Assembly (NCBI RefSeq): GCF_003315205.1
Contig: NZ_QNRR01000001.1
Coordinates: 806,001-870,000, forward strand
DNA from: Roseimicrobium gellanilyticum
GTDB lineage: Bacteria; Verrucomicrobiota; Verrucomicrobiia; Verrucomicrobiales; Verrucomicrobiaceae
Direction of reading: 5' to 3'
DNA: 64,000 nucleotides
Notes under the pieces: model-generated
Seen by the model: the letters and a program-made list of their open reading frames with translations, nothing else
Told to the model about the DNA's origin: nothing
Databases searched by the model: none
Position numbers and translations under genes: made by a program
Shown: positions 23,143 to 34,791 of the stretch, in pieces
Layout of the letters: each line of letters begins with the position of its first letter
Position numbering within the stretch: position 1 is the first letter of the stretch

Positions 23143-23451
23143 ATGCAAAGTCAACGCATCAGAATTCGCCTGCGGGCTTACGATTACCGTGTGCTGGACA
23201 AGTCCACTGCGGAAATCGTGGAGACGGCCAAGCGCACCGGCGCCAAAGTGGCGGGCCCCATTCCTCTGCCCACCCGCATTGAGAAATTCAATGTGAACCG
23301 CTCACCGCACGTGGACAAGAAGTCCTCCGAGCATTTCGAAATCCGCACGCACAAGCGCCTGCTGGACATCGTGGACCCCACGGCCCGCACCGTGGACGAG
23401 CTGAAGAAACTGAACCTGCCGTCCGGCGTGGACATCACCATCCGCATCTAA
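23143..23451 (+). CDS. rpsJ: 30S ribosomal protein S10
   Basis: A 102-residue S10 of normal length. [14 protein letters not shown] opening, [35 protein letters not shown] signature and the [25 protein letters not shown] end are all present. It belongs to the 30S head and also the NusB-NusE antitermination complex. It is the first gene of the S10 section, here fused to the str section without tuf. Confidence 0.98.
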
Positions 23452-23476
23452 GCGGGCACCTAGGAAGACGACTCCC

Positions 23477-24118
23477 ATGAAAATTGGTTTGATTGGCAAA
23501 AAGCTGGGTATGACCCAGGTGTACACGGACAAGGGCGAAGCGCTTCCGGTAACCGTCATTCAGGTGGCGGGAAACCAGGTGGTGCAGGTCAAGACCGTGG
23601 AGAAGGATGGCTACAGCGCTGTTCAGCTTGGATTCGGTGACAAGAAGGAAAAGAGCGTGAACAAGCCTGAAGGCGGTCACTTCAAGAAGGCCGGTGCCTC
23701 TCCGAAGTACGTGTTGAAGGAATACCGCGTGGATGGCGAGGCTCCTGCCGCCGGCACCGTGTTCGGTCCTGAGGTGTTCGAAGTTGGCGACGTCGTGGAC
23801 GTCATCGGCACCACCAAGGGCAAGGGCTTCCAGGGTGTTGTGAAGCGCTATGGCTTCGCCGGCCAGCCCATGTCCCATGGTTCCATGATGCACCGTCGTA
23901 CTGGTTCCATCGGTTGCCGTCTTACCCCCGGTCGCGTTTGGAAGAACCAGAAGATGCCCGGACACACCGGCACCACCAATCGCACCACGCAGAATCTGCA
24001 GATCGTGCAGAGCCGCACTGAAGAGGGCGTCATCCTTGTGAGAGGTTGCGTTCCTGGCCACAACAACTCCTACGTCTTCGTGCGTCCTGCCATCAAGAAG
24101 GCCGCCGCCAAGAACTAA
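23477..24118 (+). CDS. rplC: 50S ribosomal protein L3
   Basis: A 213-residue L3 starting GLIGKKLGMTQVY, with the conserved central loop that reaches toward the peptidyl-transferase centre (GTTKGKGFQGVVKRYGFAGQ, SHGSMMHRRTGSIG, KMPGHTGTTNRTTQNL). Length is typical. It is 25 bases after rpsJ and 22 before rplD. Confidence 0.98.
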   Translation: MKIGLIGKKLGMTQVYTDKGEALPVTVIQVAGNQVVQVKTVEKDGYSAVQLGFGDKKEKSVNKPEGGHFKKAGASPKYVLKEYRVDGEAPAAGTVFGPEVFEVGDVVDVIGTTKGKGFQGVVKRYGFAGQPMSHGSMMHRRTGSIGCRLTPGRVWKNQKMPGHTGTTNRTTQNLQIVQSRTEEGVILVRGCVPGHNNSYVFVRPAIKKAAAKN

Positions 24119-24140
24119 CTTCTGAGTCGAGCCCATCGTC

Positions 24141-24752
24141 ATGTCCGCAACTACTCTTACACTCGACGCCGCAAAGCAGGCCAGCATCAATCTGGTCGAG
24201 GATCCTGCCAAGGGTCTCCAGGCTCTGCATGAAACCGTCGTGGCCTATCGCGCCAACCGCCGCCAGGGCACTGCCTGCACGAAGACCCGCAATGAAGTTG
24301 CGGGCTCCGGCAAGAAGCTCTGGAATCAGAAGGGCACCGGCCGTGCTCGTATGGGCAGCGTCCGCTCTCCCATCTGGCGTGGGGGTGGTATCGTCTGGGG
24401 CCCCCGCCCTCGCGATTACTCCAAGAAGATCCCGCAGAAGATCAAGTCGCTGGCCCTCCGCCGCGCCCTGACCTCCCGCATTGAAGACGGCGCTGTTCTC
24501 ACCACCGCGAACTTCTCCATCCAGGACGGCAAGACCAAGAGCTTCATCAAGACGCTCAGCGGTCTCACCGACGCGAAGAAGGTACTCGTGCTTGCCAGCG
24601 CCTTCGATGAAAACACCTTCCTCAGCGGTCGCAATGTTGCCAGCGTGCAGCTTCTGAATGCCGCCGACGTGAACGCTGAACACCTCCTCAACTTCGAGAA
24701 GATCGTCGTAGTGGGAGACGCCCTTGAAATCCTTGCCAAGAGGACTGCCTAA
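24141..24752 (+). CDS. rplD: 50S ribosomal protein L4
   Basis: A 203-residue L4. The exit-tunnel loop is visible (YRANRRQGTACTKTRNEVAGSGKK...KGTGRARMGSVRSPIWRGGG). The C-terminal half gives the Rossmann-like fold. In Enterobacteria L4 also represses the S10 operon; whether that holds here cannot be told. The stop is immediately followed by the rplW ATG. Confidence 0.98.
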   Translation: MSATTLTLDAAKQASINLVEDPAKGLQALHETVVAYRANRRQGTACTKTRNEVAGSGKKLWNQKGTGRARMGSVRSPIWRGGGIVWGPRPRDYSKKIPQKIKSLALRRALTSRIEDGAVLTTANFSIQDGKTKSFIKTLSGLTDAKKVLVLASAFDENTFLSGRNVASVQLLNAADVNAEHLLNFEKIVVVGDALEILAKRTA

Positions 24753-25034
24753 ATGAAAGACCTTTCCTACGCCATCAAAACGATCCGCCTCAGTGAGAAG
24801 GCCACCCTTCTCGGTGAGAAGCTGAACGAATACGTCTTCAAGGTCGATCCACGCGCCAACAAGATCGAGATCAAGCAGGCCGTGGAGAAGCTCTTTGGCA
24901 AGAAGGTCGTCGACGTTCGCACCATGAACTACTCCGGCAAGGAGCGCCGCCGTGGCGCCCGCGCTGGCCAGACTTCCGACTGGAAGAAGGCCGTTGTCCG
25001 CCTCAAGGAAGGCGAAACCATCGAGCTCGCCTAG
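24753..25034 (+). CDS. rplW: 50S ribosomal protein L23
   Basis: A 93-residue L23 with KATLLGEKLNEYVFKVDPRANKIEIKQAVEKLFGKKVVDVRTMNYSGKERRRG, the standard fold that sits at the tunnel exit and docks trigger factor and SRP. It starts directly after the rplD stop (no gap), so translational coupling is likely. Confidence 0.98.
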   Translation: MKDLSYAIKTIRLSEKATLLGEKLNEYVFKVDPRANKIEIKQAVEKLFGKKVVDVRTMNYSGKERRRGARAGQTSDWKKAVVRLKEGETIELA

Positions 25035-25083
25035 TCGATATCCGCCTCGTTCGTCCCTGTAGAAATTTTCCCCTTATCGCGTC

Positions 25084-25920
25084 ATGGCTCTTAAGACATT
25101 CAAGCCCAACACGCCCTCAAACCGGTTCAAGCAGCTCCCTGCCTTCGAGGAAATCACGAAGCACACCCCGGAGCGCAGCCTGACCGAGGCCCTGCGCAAA
25201 TCGGGTGGCCGCAACAACACGGGTCGCATCACCTGCCGTCACATCGGCGGTGGTCACAAGCGCCGCTACCGTCTCATCGACTTCAAGCGCTCCCGCCGTG
25301 ATGAAGCTGCCAATGTAGTTGGCATCGAGTACGATCCAAACCGCTCCGCTCGTATTGCGCTCATCCAGTTCCCGGATGGCCAGAAGAGCTACATCCTTGC
25401 TCCCGCCAACCTCGAAGTGGGCGCCAAGGTGACCGCCGGTGAGAAGGCCCAGCCCGAACTTGGCAATGCCCTTCCGCTGCGCAACATCCCGCTCGGCACG
25501 CAGATTCACAACATCGAGATCAACCCTGCCCAGGGTGGCAAACTCGTTCGTGCTGCCGGCCAGGCCGCGGTGCTTTCCAACCGTGAAGGCCGCTACGCGC
25601 TCATCCGCCTGCCCTCCGGTGAAATCCGCAAGATCCTTGCTGACTGCTACGCCACCATTGGTCAGGTCGGCAACACCGACCACATGAACGTCATCAGTGG
25701 CAAGGCTGGCCGTACCCGCTGGCTGGGCGTCCGCCCCACTGTTCGCGGTATGTGCATGAACCCCATCGACCACCCGAACGGTGGTGGTGAAGGCCGCTCC
25801 AAGTCCGGTGGTGGTCGCCAGCACCTCCTCAGCCCCTGGGGCCATGCCAAGGGCCAGAAGACCCGCAGCAAGAAGAAGCATTCGAACCGCCTCATCGTGC
25901 AGCGTCGCAACGCCAAGTAA
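25084..25920 (+). CDS. rplB: 50S ribosomal protein L2
   Basis: A 278-residue L2, the largest primary-binding protein of the peptidyl-transferase region. The catalytic-site loop [27 protein letters not shown] is intact, with the usual [21 protein letters not shown] near the N-terminus. The common Val-Ala of RGVAMNP is Met-Cys here, a mild variation. Length is normal. Confidence 0.98.
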
Positions 25921-25956
25921 TCTTTTCCGAACCTCTGACTTAGCTCGTTACCTGCC

Positions 25957-26235
25957 ATGGGACGCTCACTTAAAAAAGGACCTTTCATCAACCAGAAGCT
26001 GCTCTGGAAGATTGACACCCAGAATGAAGCCGGGACCAAGCGCCCCATCAAAACTTGGGCTCGCGCTTCGATCATCCCTCCGGATTTCGTTGGCCACACC
26101 TTCCTGGTGCACAATGGCAAGGACTTCATCAGCGTGTATGTGACCGAAAACATGGTCGGACATCGCCTCGGTGAATTCTCGCCGACCCGCGTATTCAAGG
26201 GCCACGGCGCGCACACCGCCAAGGTCACCAAGTAA
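25957..26235 (+). CDS. rpsS: 30S ribosomal protein S19
   Basis: A 92-residue S19 ([56 protein letters not shown]). It forms a 30S head pair with S13. Normally rplV follows within tens of bases; here an unrelated gene of 264 codons begins 41 bases downstream. Confidence 0.98.
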
Positions 26236-26276
26236 AGATACCTGTCACCGAGTTTCCCATCTCTTTCTCCACCGTC

Positions 26277-27068
26277 ATGTCACTTCTCCGCAACATCGCC
26301 CGCAAAGGCACTGCCGCGCTTCTCGCGCTGGTGGCGCTTGGCGCTGGCCATGTGCAGGGACAGCAGAACCTGGCGGTGGAATTGAAGGAAGCTCAGATGA
26401 CCCTCACGGCGGCGCTTACCCGCGTCTCCGACGTCGAAGCGCGTCTAACCAAGGCGCGCGAACAGGTGAACGCCCTGGCGGAAGCCCTCGCTGCCGCCAA
26501 CGGTGAGTCCCAGCAGACCCGCGAGGCCTATGAACGCATCCGCGTGCAGATGGAAGGTCTCGGTATGGCTGCGCTGGACGCCAGCAACAACGAGACGAAT
26601 CAGCGTCTGCTCGCCGCTCTGAGCGACATCCGCATCTTGGAGACCCAGAATCGCTCCCTCACGGACGCGCTCTATCAGCTCTCGGTAGCCAGTCTCGAAT
26701 ATGCCAAGGCTGCCGGTCCTGTGCAGGGCCAGCCCAAGATCAAGTTTGATGAAGGCCTCGCCTCTGCGGAGAAGGCCCTCGCAAAAGTGCAGTCCGCGAA
26801 GCAGCCAGTCGGCGACTTCGACCTTCAGAATGCCCGTGTCGTGAGCCTGAAGGACGACGCTGGTATCCTCATTCTCAATGTCGGATCGCGCCACGGGGTG
26901 CATCCCGGCATGCCCTTTTCCATCTACCGTCAGGACAAGCCTGTCGCCCGTGCTCTCGTTGTCGATGTCCGCAATGGCATCTGCGGGGCCGTGTTGCAGG
27001 AGCTCGTCAGCAAGGATGAACCCGTCAAAGTAGGGGACACCGGCCGCGTCGAGCCCGTGAAGAGTTAA
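26277..27068 (+). CDS. Secreted coiled-coil protein inserted in the S10 operon
   Basis: A 263-residue protein with a signal peptide (LLALVALGAGHVQG, cleavage near residue 28), a long Ala/Glu/Leu-rich coiled coil (about 33-150, LTAALTRVSDVEARLTKAREQVNALAEALAA), and a C-terminal small beta domain (about 185-263: DAGILILNVGSRHGVHPGMPFSIYRQDKPVARALVVDV...VKVGDTGRVEP). That end resembles FlgT-C-like/OB-like periplasmic modules (GxxxGVxxGMxFxVxR...VGD). It is not a ribosomal protein. The codon use looks like its neighbours and spacing is tight (41 bases before, 18 after), so it is co-transcribed with the ribosomal genes. Function unknown. Confidence 0.88.
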   Translation: MSLLRNIARKGTAALLALVALGAGHVQGQQNLAVELKEAQMTLTAALTRVSDVEARLTKAREQVNALAEALAAANGESQQTREAYERIRVQMEGLGMAALDASNNETNQRLLAALSDIRILETQNRSLTDALYQLSVASLEYAKAAGPVQGQPKIKFDEGLASAEKALAKVQSAKQPVGDFDLQNARVVSLKDDAGILILNVGSRHGVHPGMPFSIYRQDKPVARALVVDVRNGICGAVLQELVSKDEPVKVGDTGRVEPVKS

Positions 27069-27086
27069 CTGGAAGCAAGCCAAGCC

Positions 27087-27485
27087 ATGGAAGTCAAATC
27101 CGTCACGAAATTCGCAAGAATCTCCGATCTCAAGGCCCGGGAAGTTGCCCGCGCCGTGCAGGGGATGCCCGTCTCGCAGGCCCTCAGCGTGCTCAACTTC
27201 ACTCCGAAGAAGGCCGCCCTCTTGATCGGCAAGACCCTCCGTTCCGCCATCGCCAATGCGGAGAACAATCATGAGCTTGATGCGGATGACCTTTACATCA
27301 AGAGCGCCACGGCCACGAAGGGCCCGGTCCTCAAGCGCATCATGCCCCGCGCCCGTGGATCCGCAGCCGGCATCAAGAAGCGCATGAGCCATCTCACGAT
27401 TGTCCTGGCCCAGAAGCCGGAAGAAAAAGAAGAAGCGAAACCCAAGCGCGCCGCCAAGTCGAAGAAGGCCGCTGAGAAAGCCTAG
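27087..27485 (+). CDS. rplV: 50S ribosomal protein L22
   Basis: A 132-residue L22; the core (residues 1-110) has ARISDLKAREVARAVQGMP and the exit-tunnel hairpin GPVLKRIMPRARGSAAGIKKR. A Lys/Ala/Glu-rich tail (EEKEEAKPKRAAKSKKAAEKA) of about 20 residues extends beyond E. coli L22. It starts 18 bases after the inserted secreted-protein gene. Confidence 0.97.
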   Translation: MEVKSVTKFARISDLKAREVARAVQGMPVSQALSVLNFTPKKAALLIGKTLRSAIANAENNHELDADDLYIKSATATKGPVLKRIMPRARGSAAGIKKRMSHLTIVLAQKPEEKEEAKPKRAAKSKKAAEKA

Positions 27486-27518
27486 TCAGCAGCCAGATTC
27501 CCAACCCTTTCAAATACT

Positions 27519-28331
27519 ATGGGCCAAAAAGTCAATCCAATCGGATTCCGTCTCGCCGTCAACAAGGACTGGCGCTCGAAGTGGTACGCCCCGGAGAAGG
27601 ACTATGCGGAGTTCCTGCATGCTGACCTTGCCATTCGCGACTACCTCAAGAAGAAGCTTTCCTCAGCGGCGCTCGCCAAGATCGTCATCGAGCGCGCCTG
27701 GAATCTGGTTCGCGTCACCCTGCACACCGCGCGTCCCGGTCTCGTGATCGGTCGCAAGGGCCAGGAAATCGAAGTGATGAGCAACGAAATCTCCAAGATG
27801 TGCGGCGGCAAGTCCGTGAAGATCGACATCCTTGAGATCAAGCAGCCCGAGATCGACGCCCAGCTCGTTGCTGAGAGCGTGGCGACCCAGCTTGAGCGCC
27901 GTATCTCTTTCCGCCGTGCGATGAAGCGCGCCGTGCAGACCGCGATGGACATGGGTGCTGATGGCATTCGTATTCGCTGCGCCGGCCGTCTCGGTGGTGC
28001 GGACATCGCCCGCGCTGAGCAGTATCGCCAGGGCAAGGTGCCGCTTCAGACTCTTCGTATCAACATCGACTACGGCTTCACCGAAGCCCGCACCGTGTAC
28101 GGCATCATTGGCGTCAAGTGCTGGCTCAACCGCAAGCCTGAAGTGGAAGGAGCTCCCGCTCCTGAGCGCCGCCAGGAACGCCGCCCCCGCCGTGAAGGTG
28201 ATCGTGGCGACCGTGGTCCGCGTGGTGGTGGTGGCGGCGGATATCGCGGTGGTGACCGCGGTGATCGTGGTGGTGACCGTCAGGCCTCCGCGCCTGCCCC
28301 GGCTCCCGCCGAAGCGCCCGCTGCGCAGTAA
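27519..28331 (+). CDS. rpsC: 30S ribosomal protein S3 with RGG-like tail
   Basis: A 270-residue S3. The core has MGQKVNPIGFRLAVNKDW, the KH domain (RPGLVIGRKGQEIEVM) and GADGIRIRCAGRLGGADIAR. After about residue 212 comes a tail rich in Arg, Gly and Asp (RRPRREGDRGDRGPRGG, six glycines, GDRGDRGGDR) ending in Ala/Pro. E. coli S3 is 233 residues, so the tail is an extra disordered RNA-binding-like extension. Located at the mRNA entry site, it could contact mRNA; that is inference. Confidence 0.97.
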   Translation: MGQKVNPIGFRLAVNKDWRSKWYAPEKDYAEFLHADLAIRDYLKKKLSSAALAKIVIERAWNLVRVTLHTARPGLVIGRKGQEIEVMSNEISKMCGGKSVKIDILEIKQPEIDAQLVAESVATQLERRISFRRAMKRAVQTAMDMGADGIRIRCAGRLGGADIARAEQYRQGKVPLQTLRINIDYGFTEARTVYGIIGVKCWLNRKPEVEGAPAPERRQERRPRREGDRGDRGPRGGGGGGYRGGDRGDRGGDRQASAPAPAPAEAPAAQ

Positions 28332-28379
28332 GTTTTTTGAATCGCTTTTAACACTGGAAACAAAGGAAGGATCTGAGTC

Positions 28380-28802
28380 ATGGCAATGCTGCCCAGCAGA
28401 GTTAAGTATCGCAAAACCCAGCGCGGAAGCCGCGCGGGCAATGCCACCACGTGCAACAAGATCAGCTTCGGCGAGTATGGCCTGCAGGCTCTGGACCGTC
28501 ACTGGCTCAAGAGCAATCAGATCGAGGCCTGCCGTGTGGCGATTACCCGCCACCTCAAGCGTAAGGGCAGCGTGTTCATCCGCATCTTCCCACACAAGCC
28601 TGTCACGGCCCGTCCCCCGGAAACCCGAATGGGTAAAGGTAAGGGCGCTCCCGAATTCTGGGTGGCAGTGGTGTACCCCGGCACGATGCTTTTCGAAATC
28701 TCCGGTGTGAGTGAAAACCTTGCGCGTGACGCCTGCCGTCTGGCCGCCAACAAGCTGGGTATCCGTACCCGCTTCGTGACCCGCCAGTCCATGATGCACT
28801 AG
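28380..28802 (+). CDS. rplP: 50S ribosomal protein L16
   Basis: A 140-residue L16 of normal length: [70 protein letters not shown]. It binds near the A-site tRNA elbow and its assembly completes the 50S subunit. Usual position between rpsC and rpmC. Confidence 0.98.
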
Positions 28803-28851
28803 TCATCCCCGAGCAACCAAGCTGCAGAACAGAACGCGCCAAACCAGCGAT

Positions 28852-29166
28852 ATGAAAGTCCAGGAACTCAGGGAACTGACCAACGAAGAAATCGCCGTCC
28901 GTCGCCGCGAGGCGAGGCAGGAACTGCTGCACCTCAGCGTGCAACAGGCCAGCGGACAGGTGGAAAACACCGGACGGTTCCGTCAGATCAAGCGCGGTAT
29001 TGCGCAGATGGAAACCATCCTTTCCGAGCGTCGCCTCAACATTGTGGTGACCAGCGGACCGAAGAAGGAGAAGAAGGCCAAGGCCGAAGCTCCCGCGGCT
29101 GACAAGCCCGCCGCAAAGAAGGCAGCCAAGAAGGCCGTGAAGAAAGCCGCCAAGAAGGCTGAATAA
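28852..29166 (+). CDS. rpmC: 50S ribosomal protein L29 with Lys/Ala-rich tail
   Basis: A 104-residue protein; the first 65 residues are a standard L29 ([56 protein letters not shown]). The remaining ~35 residues are a KAAKK-type tail ([16 protein letters not shown]), histone-H1-like in composition. L29 lies at the tunnel exit, so the tail would be exposed near the nascent chain or rRNA surface. Confidence 0.96.
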
Positions 29167-29189
29167 GCAATTCAACAGAGACACCAACG

Positions 29190-29474
29190 ATGAGCGAAAC
29201 GCAAACCAGTGCAGCCACCACCGAACCGCGCCAGGCGGTGAAGAAGACCCGTGTGGGTGTGGTCGTGTCCGACAAGATGTCCAAGACCATCGTGGTCGAA
29301 GTGGAGCGTCGGGTGCCGCATGCCCTCTTCAAGAAGATCGTCCGCAAGACCTCCAAGTTCTATGCGCACGATGAAGAGGCGAAGGCCAAAATCGGCGACA
29401 AGGTGCGCATCGAGGAGACCCGTCCGATGAGCAAGCTGAAGCGCTGGAAGCTCGTCGAAGTGCTCGCGCACTAA
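29190..29474 (+). CDS. rpsQ: 30S ribosomal protein S17
   Basis: A 94-residue S17 with an OB fold: [43 protein letters not shown] and [21 protein letters not shown]. About ten extra N-terminal residues ([10 protein letters not shown]) precede the core. Order rplP-rpmC-rpsQ-rplN is conserved. Confidence 0.97.
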
Positions 29475-29522
29475 ATTATTTTACGAAACCCCAACTGAAC
29501 CACTCGAGGGAGGATCTGGCTT

Positions 29523-29891
29523 ATGCTGCAAATGGAGTCCGAAATCGCGATTGCCGACAACACCGGCGCTCGCATGGCTGAGATGATTGGTGTCATCGGC
29601 CGCAAGAACAAGCGCACCGCGGACATCGGTGACATCATCACCGCGCACGTGCGTGTTTCCACCCCCACCGCCCAGGTGAAGAAGGGTGAAGTGGTCCGCG
29701 CCGTGGTGGTGCGCACCGCCGCCCCCATCCGCCGTGCGGACGGTTCCGTCCTGCGGTTCGACAAGAACGCGATTGTCATCATCGACAAGGACAACAATCC
29801 CCGCGGCAGCCGCATCTTTGGCCCAGTGGCCCGTGAGCTGCGTGACCGCAACTTCATGAAGATCGTTTCTCTTGCCCCAGAAGTGCTATGA
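29523..29891 (+). CDS. rplN: 50S ribosomal protein L14
   Basis: A 122-residue L14 of standard length ([63 protein letters not shown]). It contributes to intersubunit bridges with 16S rRNA. Its stop overlaps the rplX start by four bases (ATGA), so rplN and rplX are translationally coupled. Confidence 0.98.
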
Positions 29892-30130
29892 GCCGTATCA
29901 AGACCCACGTTAAGAAGGGTGACCTCGTCGAGGTGACCTCCGGAGTAGAACAGGGCAAGCAGGGCCACGTCCTGCAGGTCCTTCCCCAGAAGGGCTACGT
30001 GCTCGTGGAAGGCGTGCGCATGATCAAGAAGTCAGTGCGCCCCTCCCAGGACAAGCCCCAGGGCGGATTCGCCGAGCGCGAAGGCACCATTCACATTTCG
30101 AATGTGAAAGTTGTTGAATCCAAGAAATAA
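29888..30130 (+). CDS. rplX: 50S ribosomal protein L24
   Basis: An 80-residue L24 with a KOW motif ([25 protein letters not shown]) and [27 protein letters not shown]. It initiates 50S assembly. It overlaps rplN by four bases. The 74-base gap after it contains an 8-pair GC-rich hairpin (30158-30178) but no T-run, so transcription is expected to continue into rplE. Confidence 0.97.
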
Positions 30131-30204
30131 CAAGCCATCTTGACAGCCCGTTTTTCGCGGCCCCCCGATGGGGCTGCGGGGTTAGAAACCAAGGGAATCT
30201 GCTA

Positions 30205-30786
30205 ATGCAACCGGAACTGCTTACTCATTACAAAGAAAAGGTCGTCGACCAACTTCGCAAATCACTGGAGCTTGAAAACGTTCACCAGGTGCCTCGCCTG
30301 GAAAAGATTGTGCTGAACTGCTCCGTGGGCAAGGAACCCGACCGTAAGCAGGCTATCGAAGATGCGGTGAAGGAAATCAGCCTCATCACCGGTCAGAAGC
30401 CCGTCATCACCCTCAGCAAGAAGGCCATCGCCAACTTCAAGCTTCGTGAAGGTGAAGCCATCGGCGTGAAGGTCACCCTGCGTGGCCGCCGCATGTATGA
30501 CTTCATGATGCGTCTGGTGAAGACCGCCATCCCGCGTATCCGCGACTTCCGTGGCGTCACCCCCCGTGCCTTTGACGGCCGTGGCAACTACACGCTCGGT
30601 GTTGCTGAGCAGAGCATCTTCCCCGAAATCGAGCTGGACAAGATCAAGCGCTCCCTCGGCTTCGACGTGACCTTTGTCACTTCCACGAACAACGATGACC
30701 ATGCACGCGAGATGCTGCGCGCACTGGGCATGCCGTTCCGCACCCGCACGCAGCAGCCCAAGAAGGAAGAAGCTGCCTCCGCCTAA
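30205..30786 (+). CDS. rplE: 50S ribosomal protein L5
   Basis: A 193-residue L5 ([77 protein letters not shown]). It binds 5S rRNA and P-site tRNA. A short charged tail is present. The rpsN gene usually found next is absent: rpsH starts only 30 bases downstream. Confidence 0.98.
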
Positions 30787-30816
30787 GCCGCCAAAAGTAT
30801 AGACTGAGGATTATCC

Positions 30817-31218
30817 ATGAGTGTTGTCACCGACCCAATCGCCGACTTCCTGTCGCGAATCAAGAACGCCAGCCGCGCGGCCAAGACTGAGGCACTTGTG
30901 CCCTTCTCCCGCATGAAGGCTGAGATCGCCCGTATTCTGCAGGAAGAAGGCTATGTCTGGTCTTACGAAGTTGTCACCCCGGAAGGTGGCAAGCCCACCA
31001 TCAAGGTGAAGCTCAAGTATCAGGGCCGTACTCCCGCCATCACGGATGTGAAGCGCGTGAGCAAGCCTGGTCTGCGTCAGTATGTGGGCTCCGATGAAGT
31101 GCCCAAGGTGCTTGGTGGACTCGGAATTTCCATTCTCTCCACGCCGAAGGGCGTGATGACCGGCGCCAAGGCGCGTCGTGCGAAAGTCGGCGGCGAACTG
31201 CTCGCTCAAATTTGGTAA
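30817..31218 (+). CDS. rpsH: 30S ribosomal protein S8
   Basis: A 133-residue S8 (DPIADFLSRIKNASRAAKTEALVPFSRMKAEIARILQEEGY; GLGISILSTPKGVMTGAKARRAKVGGELLAQIW). The C-terminal ISTxxGxMT...GGE(L/V)L motif binds 16S helix 21. In E. coli S8 represses the spc operon. It directly follows rplE, with no rpsN between. Confidence 0.98.
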   Translation: MSVVTDPIADFLSRIKNASRAAKTEALVPFSRMKAEIARILQEEGYVWSYEVVTPEGGKPTIKVKLKYQGRTPAITDVKRVSKPGLRQYVGSDEVPKVLGGLGISILSTPKGVMTGAKARRAKVGGELLAQIW

Positions 31219-31232
31219 GGAGGACCTGAATC

Positions 31233-31769
31233 ATGTCACGCGTAGGTAAACAACCCATCCAGCTCCCGGACAAGGTCACCGTGAAGGTGACGGACTCCAA
31301 CGTCCATGTGGAAGGTCCCAAGGGCAAACTCGACTACACCCTTCCCGAAGGTGTGAACGTCTCCCAGGAAGGCCAGAACATCGTGGTGAAGCGTGAGAGC
31401 GAAGACCGCAAGGTCCGCGCCATGCACGGCACGGTGCAGCGCCTCATCAGCAACATGGTCCAGGGCGTGAGCGCAGGCTTCCGCAAGGATCTTGAAATCC
31501 ACGGCGTGGGTTTCCGTGCTGCGGTGAAGGGCACCAATCTGGACCTCAGCCTTGGCTACTCCCATCCGCTGCTTCATCCCATCCCGAAGACCCTCAAGGT
31601 CGCCGTTGCTGAAAACACCAAGATCAGCATCGAAGGCATCGACAAGCAGCTCGTCGGTCAGTTCGCGGCAGATGTCCGCAACTACTACCCGCCGGAACCC
31701 TATAAGGGCAAGGGCGTGCGCTACGTCGGCGAATACGTCCGTCGTAAGGAAGGCAAGAGCGTGAAGTAA
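31233..31769 (+). CDS. rplF: 50S ribosomal protein L6
   Basis: A 178-residue L6 ([92 protein letters not shown]). Two tandem L6 folds are present and the length is normal. It is located near the GTPase-associated centre. Confidence 0.98.
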
Positions 31770-31791
31770 CGAATCTTTTCAGGCAATCATC

Positions 31792-32148
31792 ATGGCTACG
31801 ATCAATCGCAAAGCTAACCGGCGCCGCATTCATGCGCGTATCCGGAAGAACCTCACCGGCACGGCGGAACGTCCGCGTCTGGCGGTTCATTTCTCCAACA
31901 AGCGCGTGTACGCCCAAATCATCAATGATGAAGAAGGCAAGACGCTTGTGTCTGCCTGCACGACCGAGAAGGCCCTCGCCGCGACCCTCGCGAACATAGC
32001 CAATGCCACCAAGGTGGGTGAGGCAATCGCCGAGCGCGCCCTCCAGGCCAACATCAGCCAGGTCGTCTTCGACCGTGGTGGTCACGTCTTCCATGGCAAG
32101 GTGAAAGCCCTCGCCGATGCCGCCCGCGCCAAGGGTCTCCAGTTCTAA
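31792..32148 (+). CDS. rplR: 50S ribosomal protein L18
   Basis: A 118-residue L18 ([72 protein letters not shown]). It binds 5S rRNA with L5. Normal length and position between rplF and rpsE. Confidence 0.97.
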
Positions 32149-32169
32149 TATCCGACACCGAATTTCATT

Positions 32170-32703
32170 ATGGCCGCTACCAATAGCAGAAGAGACAACC
32201 GCGGAGCCGACGATGGCGAAAAGAGCGACATGCTCGAGAAGGTTGTGTTCATCAACCGATGCGCCAAAGTCGTGAAGGGCGGTCGCCGCTTCAGCTTCAG
32301 CGCCCTCGTCGTCGCCGGTGACCAGAAAGGTCGCGTCGGCTTCGGCTTCGGCAAAGCGAACGAAGTTTCGGACGCCATCAAGAAGGCCAGCGAATCTTCC
32401 CGCAAGGACCTCCAGACCGTGAATCTCCTCAATGCCACCATCCCCCACGAGGTGACCGGTGAGCACGGTGGTGGCCGCGTGCTGCTCAAGCCCGCATCCC
32501 CTGGTACCGGCATCATCGCTGGTGGTGGGGTGCGCGCCGTGTGCGAAGCCGCTGGTGTGAAGGACGTGCTGGCCAAGTCCCTTGGCTCCAGCAACCACGC
32601 CAACGTGGTGAAGGCCACGCTGGCCGCTCTCTCCGCCCTGCGCATGCCGGACGAAATCCTCAAGATGCGCGGCAAGAAGATCGCCTCCAAGCAGGCCATC
32701 TAA
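32170..32703 (+). CDS. rpsE: 30S ribosomal protein S5
   Basis: A 177-residue S5 ([92 protein letters not shown]). The translational-fidelity and mRNA-helicase regions are conserved. The rpmD (L30) gene that often follows is not present: only 34 bases separate it from rplO. Confidence 0.98.
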
Positions 32704-32737
32704 GCCCCGCAACCCAACTCTTTTCCAGTAGACTATC

Positions 32738-33187
32738 ATGAGACTTCACGACCTCAAACCCACCAAGGGCGCCCGCCATCGTCGCAAGCGCGTTGGCTGC
32801 GGTGAAAGCTCCGGCCACGGCAAGACCTCCGGCCGCGGCAACAAGGGCCAGAAGGCACGCTCCGGCGGCGCCATCCGCCCCGGCTTCGAAGGTGGCCAGA
32901 TGCCCCTTTACCGCCGTCTTCCCAAGAAGGGCTTCAGCAACGCCATGTTCAAGAACGTGACTGCCGTGGTGAATCTCAGCGACCTCAACGAGCGCTTCGA
33001 AGATGGCGCGGTGGTCAACGAGGAGAGCCTGCGTCAGGCTGGCCTGGTCAAGGGCACGTACGACGTGGTCAAGGTGCTCGGTGCCGGCGAGGTGACGCGT
33101 AAGCTCACCGTGGAGGTGTCCAGCATCAGCGCCTCCGCCAAGGAAAAAATCGAAAAGGCAGGCGGTACAGTCACGCTGAAAGCATGA
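32738..33187 (+). CDS. rplO: 50S ribosomal protein L15
   Basis: A 149-residue L15 ([43 protein letters not shown] opening; [20 protein letters not shown]). It is a late-assembly 50S protein. It is followed by a 98-base gap with a hairpin (33233-33257, 10 pairs including one G-U, TTGGT loop) that may modulate expression of secY. Confidence 0.98.
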
Positions 33188-33285
33188 CAGGCCGGCGTTT
33201 CCGCCACACTTTTTCCATTTTGATGTTTGCGGGCGGCTCAGTTTGGTACTGAGTCGCTTGCCATTTCAAGACACGACTCCCCTCC

Positions 33286-34791
33286 ATGATCTCCGCCTTT
33301 GTAAACATCTTCAAAATTCCGGATCTGCGGCAGCGGATTCTGTTCACCCTGGCCATGATTGTCATCGTGCGCATCGGGTACGCGATCACGCTTCCCGGCG
33401 TGAATCCGCATGTGCTCCAGGCGTGGATTGACCTCAAGCAGGCCGACTCGGGCAACAATCCCTTCGCTGCGGCAGCGGCGTTGGTGAACGTGTTCAGCGG
33501 TGGTGGTCTGCAGCGGTGCGCGATTTTCGCCCTCGGGATCATGCCCTACATCAGTGCGAGCATCATGATGCAGCTCCTCACTGCGGTGGTGCCCAGCATG
33601 AGCAAGCTTTCCCGTGAAGACGGCGGCAGGCAAAAGATCAACCAGTGGACCCGGTATGCCACCGTGGCGCTTTGTCTTTTCCAAGGCTACCTCCTCGCTG
33701 CTTCACTCAAGAATCCGGGACAAAACATCTTCCTCGATGGCCTGGATAAGGCCATGACGGCCGTCGGCAGTCCGCTGGTGCCGGATCACAATCTGGGCTT
33801 CATCATCACTGCCGTGCTTACCATGACGGCGGGCAGCATGTTCATCATGTGGATGGGTGAGCAAATCACTGAGCGCGGCATTGGCAACGGTGTGTCGCTT
33901 CTGATCTGCATCAACATCGTGGCAGATCTCCCCGGCGCTCTCGTGCGGGTCTGGAAGACTTTCATTGCCAATGAGCAGGCGAGCACCATGGATGCCATGA
34001 AGCTTCTGGCCATGCTTGTGCTGCTGGTGGCGGTCATCGCGGGCATCATTGCGCTGACCCAGGCGCAGCGCCGCATTGCCATCCAGTACGCGAAGCGCGT
34101 GGTGGGCCGCAAGGTCTACGGCGGGCAGACGCAGTACATGCCTCTGAAGGTGAACTATGCGGGGGTGATGCCCATCATCTTCGCCCAGGCCATCCTGCTC
34201 TTCCCTGCGCAGATCATCGGCTTCATGTTCCCCCACCAGGCTGCGGTGCAGGAGTGGGCGAACTGGCTCGCCAACGGCTGGCCGAATATCATCATCTCCA
34301 CCACGCTGATCTTCTTCTTCAGCTATTTCTGGGTGGCGACGATGTTCCAGCCCAACCAGATTGCGGAAGACCTCAAGAAGAGCGGTGGTTACATCCCCGG
34401 TCAGCGCCCCGGCAAGCCCACGGCGGACTTCCTTGATTACACCATGAGCCGCCTCACTTTCGCGGGCGCACTCTTCCTGACCCTCATCTATCTGCTTCCA
34501 CTTCTGGTGCAGCGCAGCATGAAGATCGACCCCACGGTGGCCCAGTTCTTCGGCGGTACCAGCATCCTGATTCTCGTGGGTGTGGTGCTCGATGTGATGC
34601 GCCAGGTGGAAACCCATCTTCTGCAGCGCCACTACGACGGCTTCCTGCGCAAGGGCAAGATTCGCGGACGCTTCGAGCGCCAGAGCGGTGGTGGCCTTGC
34701 CGCCGACCCCAAGATGGTGGTGATGCTCTGGACGGCGATCGCGATTATCGCCATCGTGGGAGTGGCCTTTGCGGCACTCCACGGCAAATAA
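33286..34791 (+). CDS. secY: Preprotein translocase subunit SecY
   Basis: A 501-residue polytopic membrane protein with about ten transmembrane helices, the channel of the Sec translocon. Typical segments are LALAMIVIVRIGYAITLPGV-like TM1, GIMPYISASIMMQLLTAVVP, MWMGEQITERGIGNGVSLLI, KVNYAGVMPIIFAQAI and the cytoplasmic loop MFQPNQIAEDLKKSGGYIPGQRPGK. It is longer than E. coli SecY (443), partly through extra sequence between TM1-TM2 (IDLKQADSGNNPF) and in periplasmic loops. Last gene of the superoperon before the terminator. Confidence 0.97.
   Translation: MISAFVNIFKIPDLRQRILFTLAMIVIVRIGYAITLPGVNPHVLQAWIDLKQADSGNNPFAAAAALVNVFSGGGLQRCAIFALGIMPYISASIMMQLLTAVVPSMSKLSREDGGRQKINQWTRYATVALCLFQGYLLAASLKNPGQNIFLDGLDKAMTAVGSPLVPDHNLGFIITAVLTMTAGSMFIMWMGEQITERGIGNGVSLLICINIVADLPGALVRVWKTFIANEQASTMDAMKLLAMLVLLVAVIAGIIALTQAQRRIAIQYAKRVVGRKVYGGQTQYMPLKVNYAGVMPIIFAQAILLFPAQIIGFMFPHQAAVQEWANWLANGWPNIIISTTLIFFFSYFWVATMFQPNQIAEDLKKSGGYIPGQRPGKPTADFLDYTMSRLTFAGALFLTLIYLLPLLVQRSMKIDPTVAQFFGGTSILILVGVVLDVMRQVETHLLQRHYDGFLRKGKIRGRFERQSGGGLAADPKMVVMLWTAIAIIAIVGVAFAALHGK

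Follow-up and report, generated by a model that had tools for sequence, protein, structure and literature searches.

Few gene orders in bacteria are as conserved as the one to which the S10 operon belongs. A study dealing with two large groups details, in the accessible part of its text, insertions that lay between operons or in rpoBC, and describes none there inside S10 (PMC8046335). Here, we analyzed a stretch of 64,000 nucleotides from Roseimicrobium gellanilyticum (contig NZ_QNRR01000001.1, positions 806,001 to 870,000), referred to as the window in the following, in which a gene for an apparently exported protein, termed X, resides between rpsS and rplV. The described proteins that come closest to X are TsaP, a LysM protein (PDB 3jc8) with a LysM plus FlgT-C-like architecture, the flagellar H-ring protein FlgT, and MreC. 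FlgT forms a periplasmic ring and has further domains in addition to its C-terminal one. MreC exhibits an N-terminal hydrophobic segment, a coiled coil and a beta barrel part in the same order as X; according to the accessible sections of the published account, it is a scaffold that forms filament-like structures, its coiled coil is essential for dimers and the Escherichia coli protein has two barrels (PMC8804602), whereas both structural models obtained for X contain one beta module.

The open reading frame for X occupies positions 26277-27068 on the plus strand of the window, starts with ATG and comprises 263 codons for 263 amino acids. It is preceded by rpsS (25957..26235, +; Pfam PF00203 Ribosomal_S19, E 4.4e-35) and followed by rplV (27087..27485, +; Pfam Ribosomal_L22, E 6.5e-37), which is also the partner downstream of X in every locus identified by position. 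The spacers amount to 41 nt between rpsS and X (26236..26276, +) and 18 nt between X and rplV (27069..27086, +), so that the position, size and tight spacing given in the preliminary description of this DNA were all borne out. The S10/spc operon context extends from rpsJ to secY (23143..34791, +), with L2, S19, L22, S3 and SecY (encoded by rplB, rpsS, rplV, rpsC and secY) being confirmed by Pfam and the remaining genes assigned by eye from their translations. The gene rpsN, encoding S14, is missing between rplE and rpsH (window positions 30787-30816), and the single S14 match of the window genome (G000) is located on another contig (G000:C2:593353-593511). Neither a promoter nor a terminator had been thought to interrupt the arrangement around X, and a consensus pattern scan of positions 25000-28400, the 41-nt spacer included, indeed yielded no promoter-like and no plus-strand terminator-like site; the three terminator-like matches in this region, with 3.8 expected by chance, all lie on the minus strand. 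The X protein itself has one match in its own 7.93-Mb genome, while the profile described below yields five, with paralogues or weak matches accounting for the rest.

X is a real coding gene and is under purifying selection. It is 91% identical in the sister species, and dN/dS for this one species pair was 0.110 overall and 0.066 for the beta module, compared to 0.014-0.040 for L2, S19 and L22; on the basis of the identity and the dN/dS of 0.11 a chance open reading frame was rejected. With regard to codon usage, the adaptation of X to the ribosomal set (0.606) is the second lowest among the operon genes tested and falls inside the range of the ribosomal proteins (0.589-0.754 for the translation genes of the operon, leave-one-out). 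It exceeds that of 24 of the 26 other long, unannotated open reading frames of the window, two of which score higher, and the codon usage of X is thus in line with strong expression. The tight spacing, the blank scan for promoters and terminators and a codon usage close to that of ribosomal proteins are compatible with the idea that expression of X may follow ribosome synthesis.

A search with the X protein among 57 genomes of the order, i.e., the window's own and 56 relatives, returned matches in 55, including all 49 genomes with a completeness of 90% or more and a contamination of no more than 5%; the two genomes without a match are 75% and 87% complete. Gene order was read in 50 of the 55 positive genomes, own genome included, the five left out all belonging to family f2. 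In 49 of these loci, X is flanked by S19 and L22, with all three on one strand. In the 50th (L036), the contig starts just upstream of X, leaving rpsS out of view, and rplV follows X. The distance from rpsS to X has a median of 32 nt (range 12-92) in the loci of the order and that from X to rplV a median of 14 nt, with values of 26 nt or less in 44 of the 50 loci. Pairwise distances of X correlate with those of S3, L2 and L22 (Spearman 0.77, 0.79 and 0.79, respectively; n = 49), the highest correlation in 500 permutations being 0.42 and the value for L2 vs. S3 being 0.86. As its distances track those of S3, L2 and L22, X has been inherited with the operon, and this inheritance is vertical. The preliminary description had raised the possibility of an insertion unique to this contig, and homologues at the corresponding position of dozens of further genomes dispose of it. 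An assembly artefact was rejected because of the 55 of 57 genomes and 49 of 50 loci just mentioned, and the probability that X represents either an artefact or a chance open reading frame, for which we found no point in favor, is next to nil.

To cover a wider range of organisms, a profile was built from 27 members of the order. It found matches in 156 of 240 genomes of the phylum Verrucomicrobiota, which formed the scope of the survey throughout, also with regard to the possible verrucomicrobial specificity raised in the preliminary description. Since many of the matches obtained were weak or concerned other proteins, a positional test upstream of L22 was used instead: S19 and L22, or L22 by itself, were located, the intervening or upstream DNA was taken, and open reading frames upstream of L22 were scored with a profile that covered the last 95 residues and had been built without the family under test (leave-one-family-out). 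Start codons were assigned by a fixed rule, taking the first ATG or the first start codon, which certainly placed some N-termini incorrectly. The first 80 genomes consisted of the 49 members of the class that the draw contained outside the order, together with 31 genomes picked from the profile matches; one of them, G110, was dropped, as S19 and L22 both gave no match in it despite a stated completeness of 100%, perhaps due to an assembly gap in the operon. Another 80 genomes comprised 66 without and 14 with a profile match, from which three without L22 were dropped, and 50 genomes outside the order from the 240-genome draw were left out of the resulting count of 156. In this non-random sample of 156 genomes outside the order, 72, representing 34 of 54 families, contain X immediately in front of rplV, with E values of 1e-7 to 1e-30 (leave-one-family-out, scaled to 100 sequences). 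Both features by which the S10 lineage was delimited, i.e., the conserved beta module and an open reading frame directly upstream of rplV, were therefore found. The search of the rpsS-rplV interval in other Verrucomicrobiota that had been proposed at the outset thus shows the embedding of an apparently exported protein in the S10 operon to be widespread in the phylum, for a protein that in the window remains below the cut-off of every Pfam and NCBIfam model.

Among the 72 genomes outside the order that contain X, 41 have it between S19 and L22. In the other 31, X adjoins rplV, no S19 is present within the upstream DNA (0.3-1.8 kb) and, judged by eye, differing open reading frames precede X. 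Altogether, rpsS is not upstream of rplV in 46 genomes; X is kept there in 31 of them, and in 15 neither gene is present upstream of rplV (six from family f23, four from f24, three from f18 and one each from f29 and f34). As the positional test viewed only DNA upstream of L22, whole genomes were checked for members of the first set without rpsS upstream, and in 12 of 12 cases the best match of the order profile lay beside the L22 position. Where rpsS and rplV part, X therefore goes with rplV and not with rpsS, although, as the 15 genomes with neither gene demonstrate, X is not retained in every case of a broken operon. In one f18 genome, the open reading frame overlapping the start of X is tatC (L131, 373-1263; Pfam E 5.5e-55), and a tatC-like fragment, recognized by eye, overlaps the start of X in a second f18 genome (L199, 1-526).

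None of the members examined from families f8 (0/5), f19 (0/5), f24 (0/4), f25 (0/8), f26 (0/6), f35 (0/7) and f38 (0/5) contains X, so that X does not serve the entire phylum; in f9, X occurs in four of 19 genomes and is absent from 15. Intervals between rpsS and rplV that lack X measure 11-355 nt from the S19 to the L22 domain (f8, most of f9, f11, f19, f25, f26, f35, f38 and others). On a tree derived for L22, the distribution of X requires 19 changes, at least seven of them forced by well supported branches, compared with a mean of 61 for shuffled labels; this tree is based on 105 columns, has mostly weak branches, includes 27 of the 50 order loci and does not distinguish gain from loss. 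Early insertion followed by repeated loss appears to be the more economical explanation, as one would hardly expect a homologous gene to emerge at the same junction again and again.

With regard to the architecture of X, codons 1-28 (26277..26360) specify a basic and then hydrophobic N-terminus that reads as a cleavable signal peptide. The hydrophobic segment of the signal peptide claimed in the preliminary description was thus recovered, whereas its cleavage was judged by eye from hydrophobicity and sequence alone. An AlphaFold2 model based on a 52-sequence alignment (mean pLDDT 84.8) predicts helices for residues 29-99, 105-144 and 151-175, which make up a coiled-coil-like region (codons 29-175, 26361..26801), and beta strands between residues 186 and 258, in agreement with the long helices and C-terminal beta module described before. 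The beta module, a predicted FlgT-C-like barrel (codons 182-259, 26820..27053), is modeled well, with block means of pLDDT of 88-96 for residues 181-260, while the pTM of only 0.41 leaves the arrangement of the parts uncertain. Families f7, f9, f13, f14, f16 and f17 contain a short form of about 110-135 residues that consists of a signal-like segment and the beta module without the coiled coil; in the corresponding model, block means for the beta module are 90-98, and profiles of long and short forms match each other with an E value of 1.8e-14 and a probability of 98. A C-terminal beta-barrel of about 75 residues is therefore common to all forms of X and, being the only folded portion that the long and the short form have in common, makes up the core of the protein, the coiled coil being optional.

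A hydrophobic N-terminal segment, taken as a proxy for export and defined by a Kyte-Doolittle mean of at least 1.6 over 12 residues within the first 90 residues, is present in 117 of 122 X members, whereas six ribosomal proteins of the window do not exceed 1.43 by the same measure. By eye, some of these N-termini resemble cleavable signals and others uncleaved anchors, and three match the lipobox pattern; some of the five members without such a segment may have wrongly chosen starts. X is thus apparently exported.

A second coiled-coil/beta-module family, X2, occurs in the phylum and is related to X by profile comparison (E 9.7e-23, probability 99.5). X2 resembles X in having the same beta module, an N-terminal hydrophobic segment and a coiled coil, and differs from it in being located outside the ribosomal operon in two loci for which the neighbors were listed. 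In four of four f1 loci, X2 forms a tandem pair. That of the window genome (L262, 5668-6465 and 6517-7629, both on the minus strand) includes a second member with a long Pro/Ala-rich tail, and an Amidase_3 gene (L262, 1970-3607) is located at a distance of about 2 kb. With the X2 profile, matches were obtained in 77 of 80 genomes, among them those of family f8, which lack X; a part of the matches are other coiled-coil proteins or X itself.

The likeness of X to the C-terminal domain of FlgT that had been noted from the sequence holds at the level of fold and not at that of sequence. The modeled barrel superimposes on FlgT with Z scores of 11.1 (3w1e) and 11.6 (8z5n, a chain taken as FlgT from its title and length), the rmsd being 1.9-2.0 for 74-75 aligned residues. 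On the other hand, the Pfam model FlgT_C scores 16.5 bits with the window protein and thereby does not reach its gathering cut-off of 27; it matches 11 of 52 members at E values up to 0.1, with a best value of 0.0096. F1-ATPase barrels reach Z scores of up to 10.4 with long-form X, within one unit of the 3w1e row, and the short form scores equally well with F1/V1-ATPase barrels and with 8z5n (10.0-10.3). Due to this near-tie, the fold by itself does not prove a role as a scaffold. The model of X contains no other FlgT domain, and the identification of X as the flagellar FlgT was rejected, as flagellin searches gave no match in the window genome or in 34 of the 40 genomes searched.

Similarities of X to MreC and TsaP at the sequence level are weak. 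MreC structures appear in the Foldseek list for X (best E 4.1e-4), together with rotary-ATPase chains, and comparison of X with a profile of 15 MreC proteins from the phylum gave an E value of 1.1e-5 and a probability of 82. The NCBIfam model for MreC matches X at E 0.021 with 13.9 bits vs. a cut-off of 243 and weakly matches three of 52 members (best E 2.1e-4), while the Pfam MreC model gave no match for X at E values up to 10 with HMMER filters that drop weak matches. MreC was found in 76 of 80 genomes, both with and without X, and a separate, true MreC is encoded in the window genome. This coexistence led us to reject X as a replacement of MreC. In the three f2 genomes searched (G036, G043 and G055, 99-100% complete), X and X2-like matches are present and MreC matches are absent. 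X is therefore neither MreC nor tied to MreC. In a PDB sequence search, the best match of X was TsaP (whole-sequence E 4e-4), followed by MreC (E 0.024). The TsaP match spans a part of the beta module only, with an E value of 0.016 for the best stretch alone, and Pfam detected no LysM domain in X at E values up to 10, so the architecture of TsaP is not that of X. A defense-related role was likewise rejected, as PADLOC returned only weak coiled-coil matches (best E 0.0014). The PVC signature protein CT421.2, of unknown function, limited to related phyla and reported from four of them in the accessible part of its description, was set aside as a different protein on that description alone (PMC3444138).

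The gene, its conservation, its linkage to rplV, the selection acting on it and the hydrophobic N-terminus of its product, combined with the predicted fold, are best explained in our view by X being an ancient exported envelope scaffold with a single barrel that is made in one transcription unit with rplV and whose amount tracks ribosome synthesis, a tentative reading to which we assign slightly less than an even chance. An N-terminal signal peptide or membrane anchor would target the protein, an optional coiled-coil stalk would hold the barrel away from the membrane, and the one FlgT-C-like beta-barrel at the end would act as the functional core. By analogy to MreC and the FlgT ring protein, which use such barrels, X is probably a self-assembling periplasmic scaffold, and it may contact the cell-wall or inner-membrane machinery. 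If X and rplV share one transcription unit and are perhaps translationally coupled, coupling of the amount of X to growth rate would follow from that of the ribosome. The further proposal that operon membership links the supply of an envelope scaffold with that of ribosomes in Verrucomicrobiota, and that surface growth is set or limited by the dose of X proportionally to growth rate, appears unlikely to us as it stands.

The main rival of this scaffold reading is historical lock-in, according to which a gene for an exported protein landed upstream of rplV early in the phylum and could not easily leave without breaking the operon, such that its function needs no coupling to growth rate. The 19 changes on the L22 tree, at least seven of them forced, mark X as dispensable in places and fit this explanation, as do the 15 genomes in which both rpsS and X are missing upstream of rplV and the existence of paralogues of the same build outside the ribosomal operon. 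The retention of X beside rplV in 31 of the 46 genomes without rpsS upstream and the codon usage within the ribosomal-protein range point the other way, but both are compatible with lock-in too, and we judge it somewhat unlikely rather than implausible. That X is a cell-wall elongation factor, as a partner or variant of MreC, is improbable: the shared order of hydrophobic segment, coiled coil and barrel, the profile and Foldseek similarities and the weak NCBIfam matches have to be weighed against the occurrence of MreC itself irrespective of X, its apparent absence from all three f2 genomes searched that do contain X, the single barrel instead of two and the position of X beside rplV.

X might also be a periplasmic helper of protein export that is kept near the genes for ribosomal proteins and SecY because export load would scale with translation. 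The presence of secY in the same gene cluster would fit, yet secY is found in the S10/spc cluster in most bacteria; similarly, the tatC gene and the tatC-like fragment overlapping the start of X in two f18 genomes contrast with different open reading frames in front of X in other genomes without rpsS upstream. As, in addition, no Sec-associated chaperone was among the Pfam and NCBIfam matches of the window protein, a function of this kind is highly improbable. L22 is a ribosomal protein of the exit tunnel, and an exported-looking open reading frame directly upstream of its gene could be a secretion-monitoring or leader sequence that regulates translation of rplV in the way known for SecM and secA. 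The last residues of X are alike in seven of seven f7 members. Across the order, however, the C-terminal residues, i.e., the place of any arrest peptide, vary when inspected by eye, which makes such control unlikely, and the conserved part is a folded beta module. With ends alike only within families such as f7 and no common C-terminal arrest sequence, a SecM-like leader was rejected, its probability being very slight.

Searches of the open-licence literature on ribosomal operons of Verrucomicrobiota, judged by titles and the beginnings of abstracts, returned no paper on X. The types of parts that make up X are known, while their combination, their place and their wide retention are new as far as this literature search goes. 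For Verrucomicrobium spinosum, a saturated transposon library and targeted mutagenesis exist, and the accessible part of the 2025 transposon study gives 100 essential proteins of unknown function (PMC12283558); with these tools, the role of X can be tested now. An exported-looking protein that is kept inside the S10 operon across diverse families, often beside rplV in genomes with rpsS in another place, is indicative of selection on joint expression and suggests that X is an unstudied component of the cell envelope that is made together with ribosomes. If the scaffold reading is true, X would provide these bacteria with a simple, hard-wired link that matches growth of the envelope to the synthesis and supply of ribosomes.
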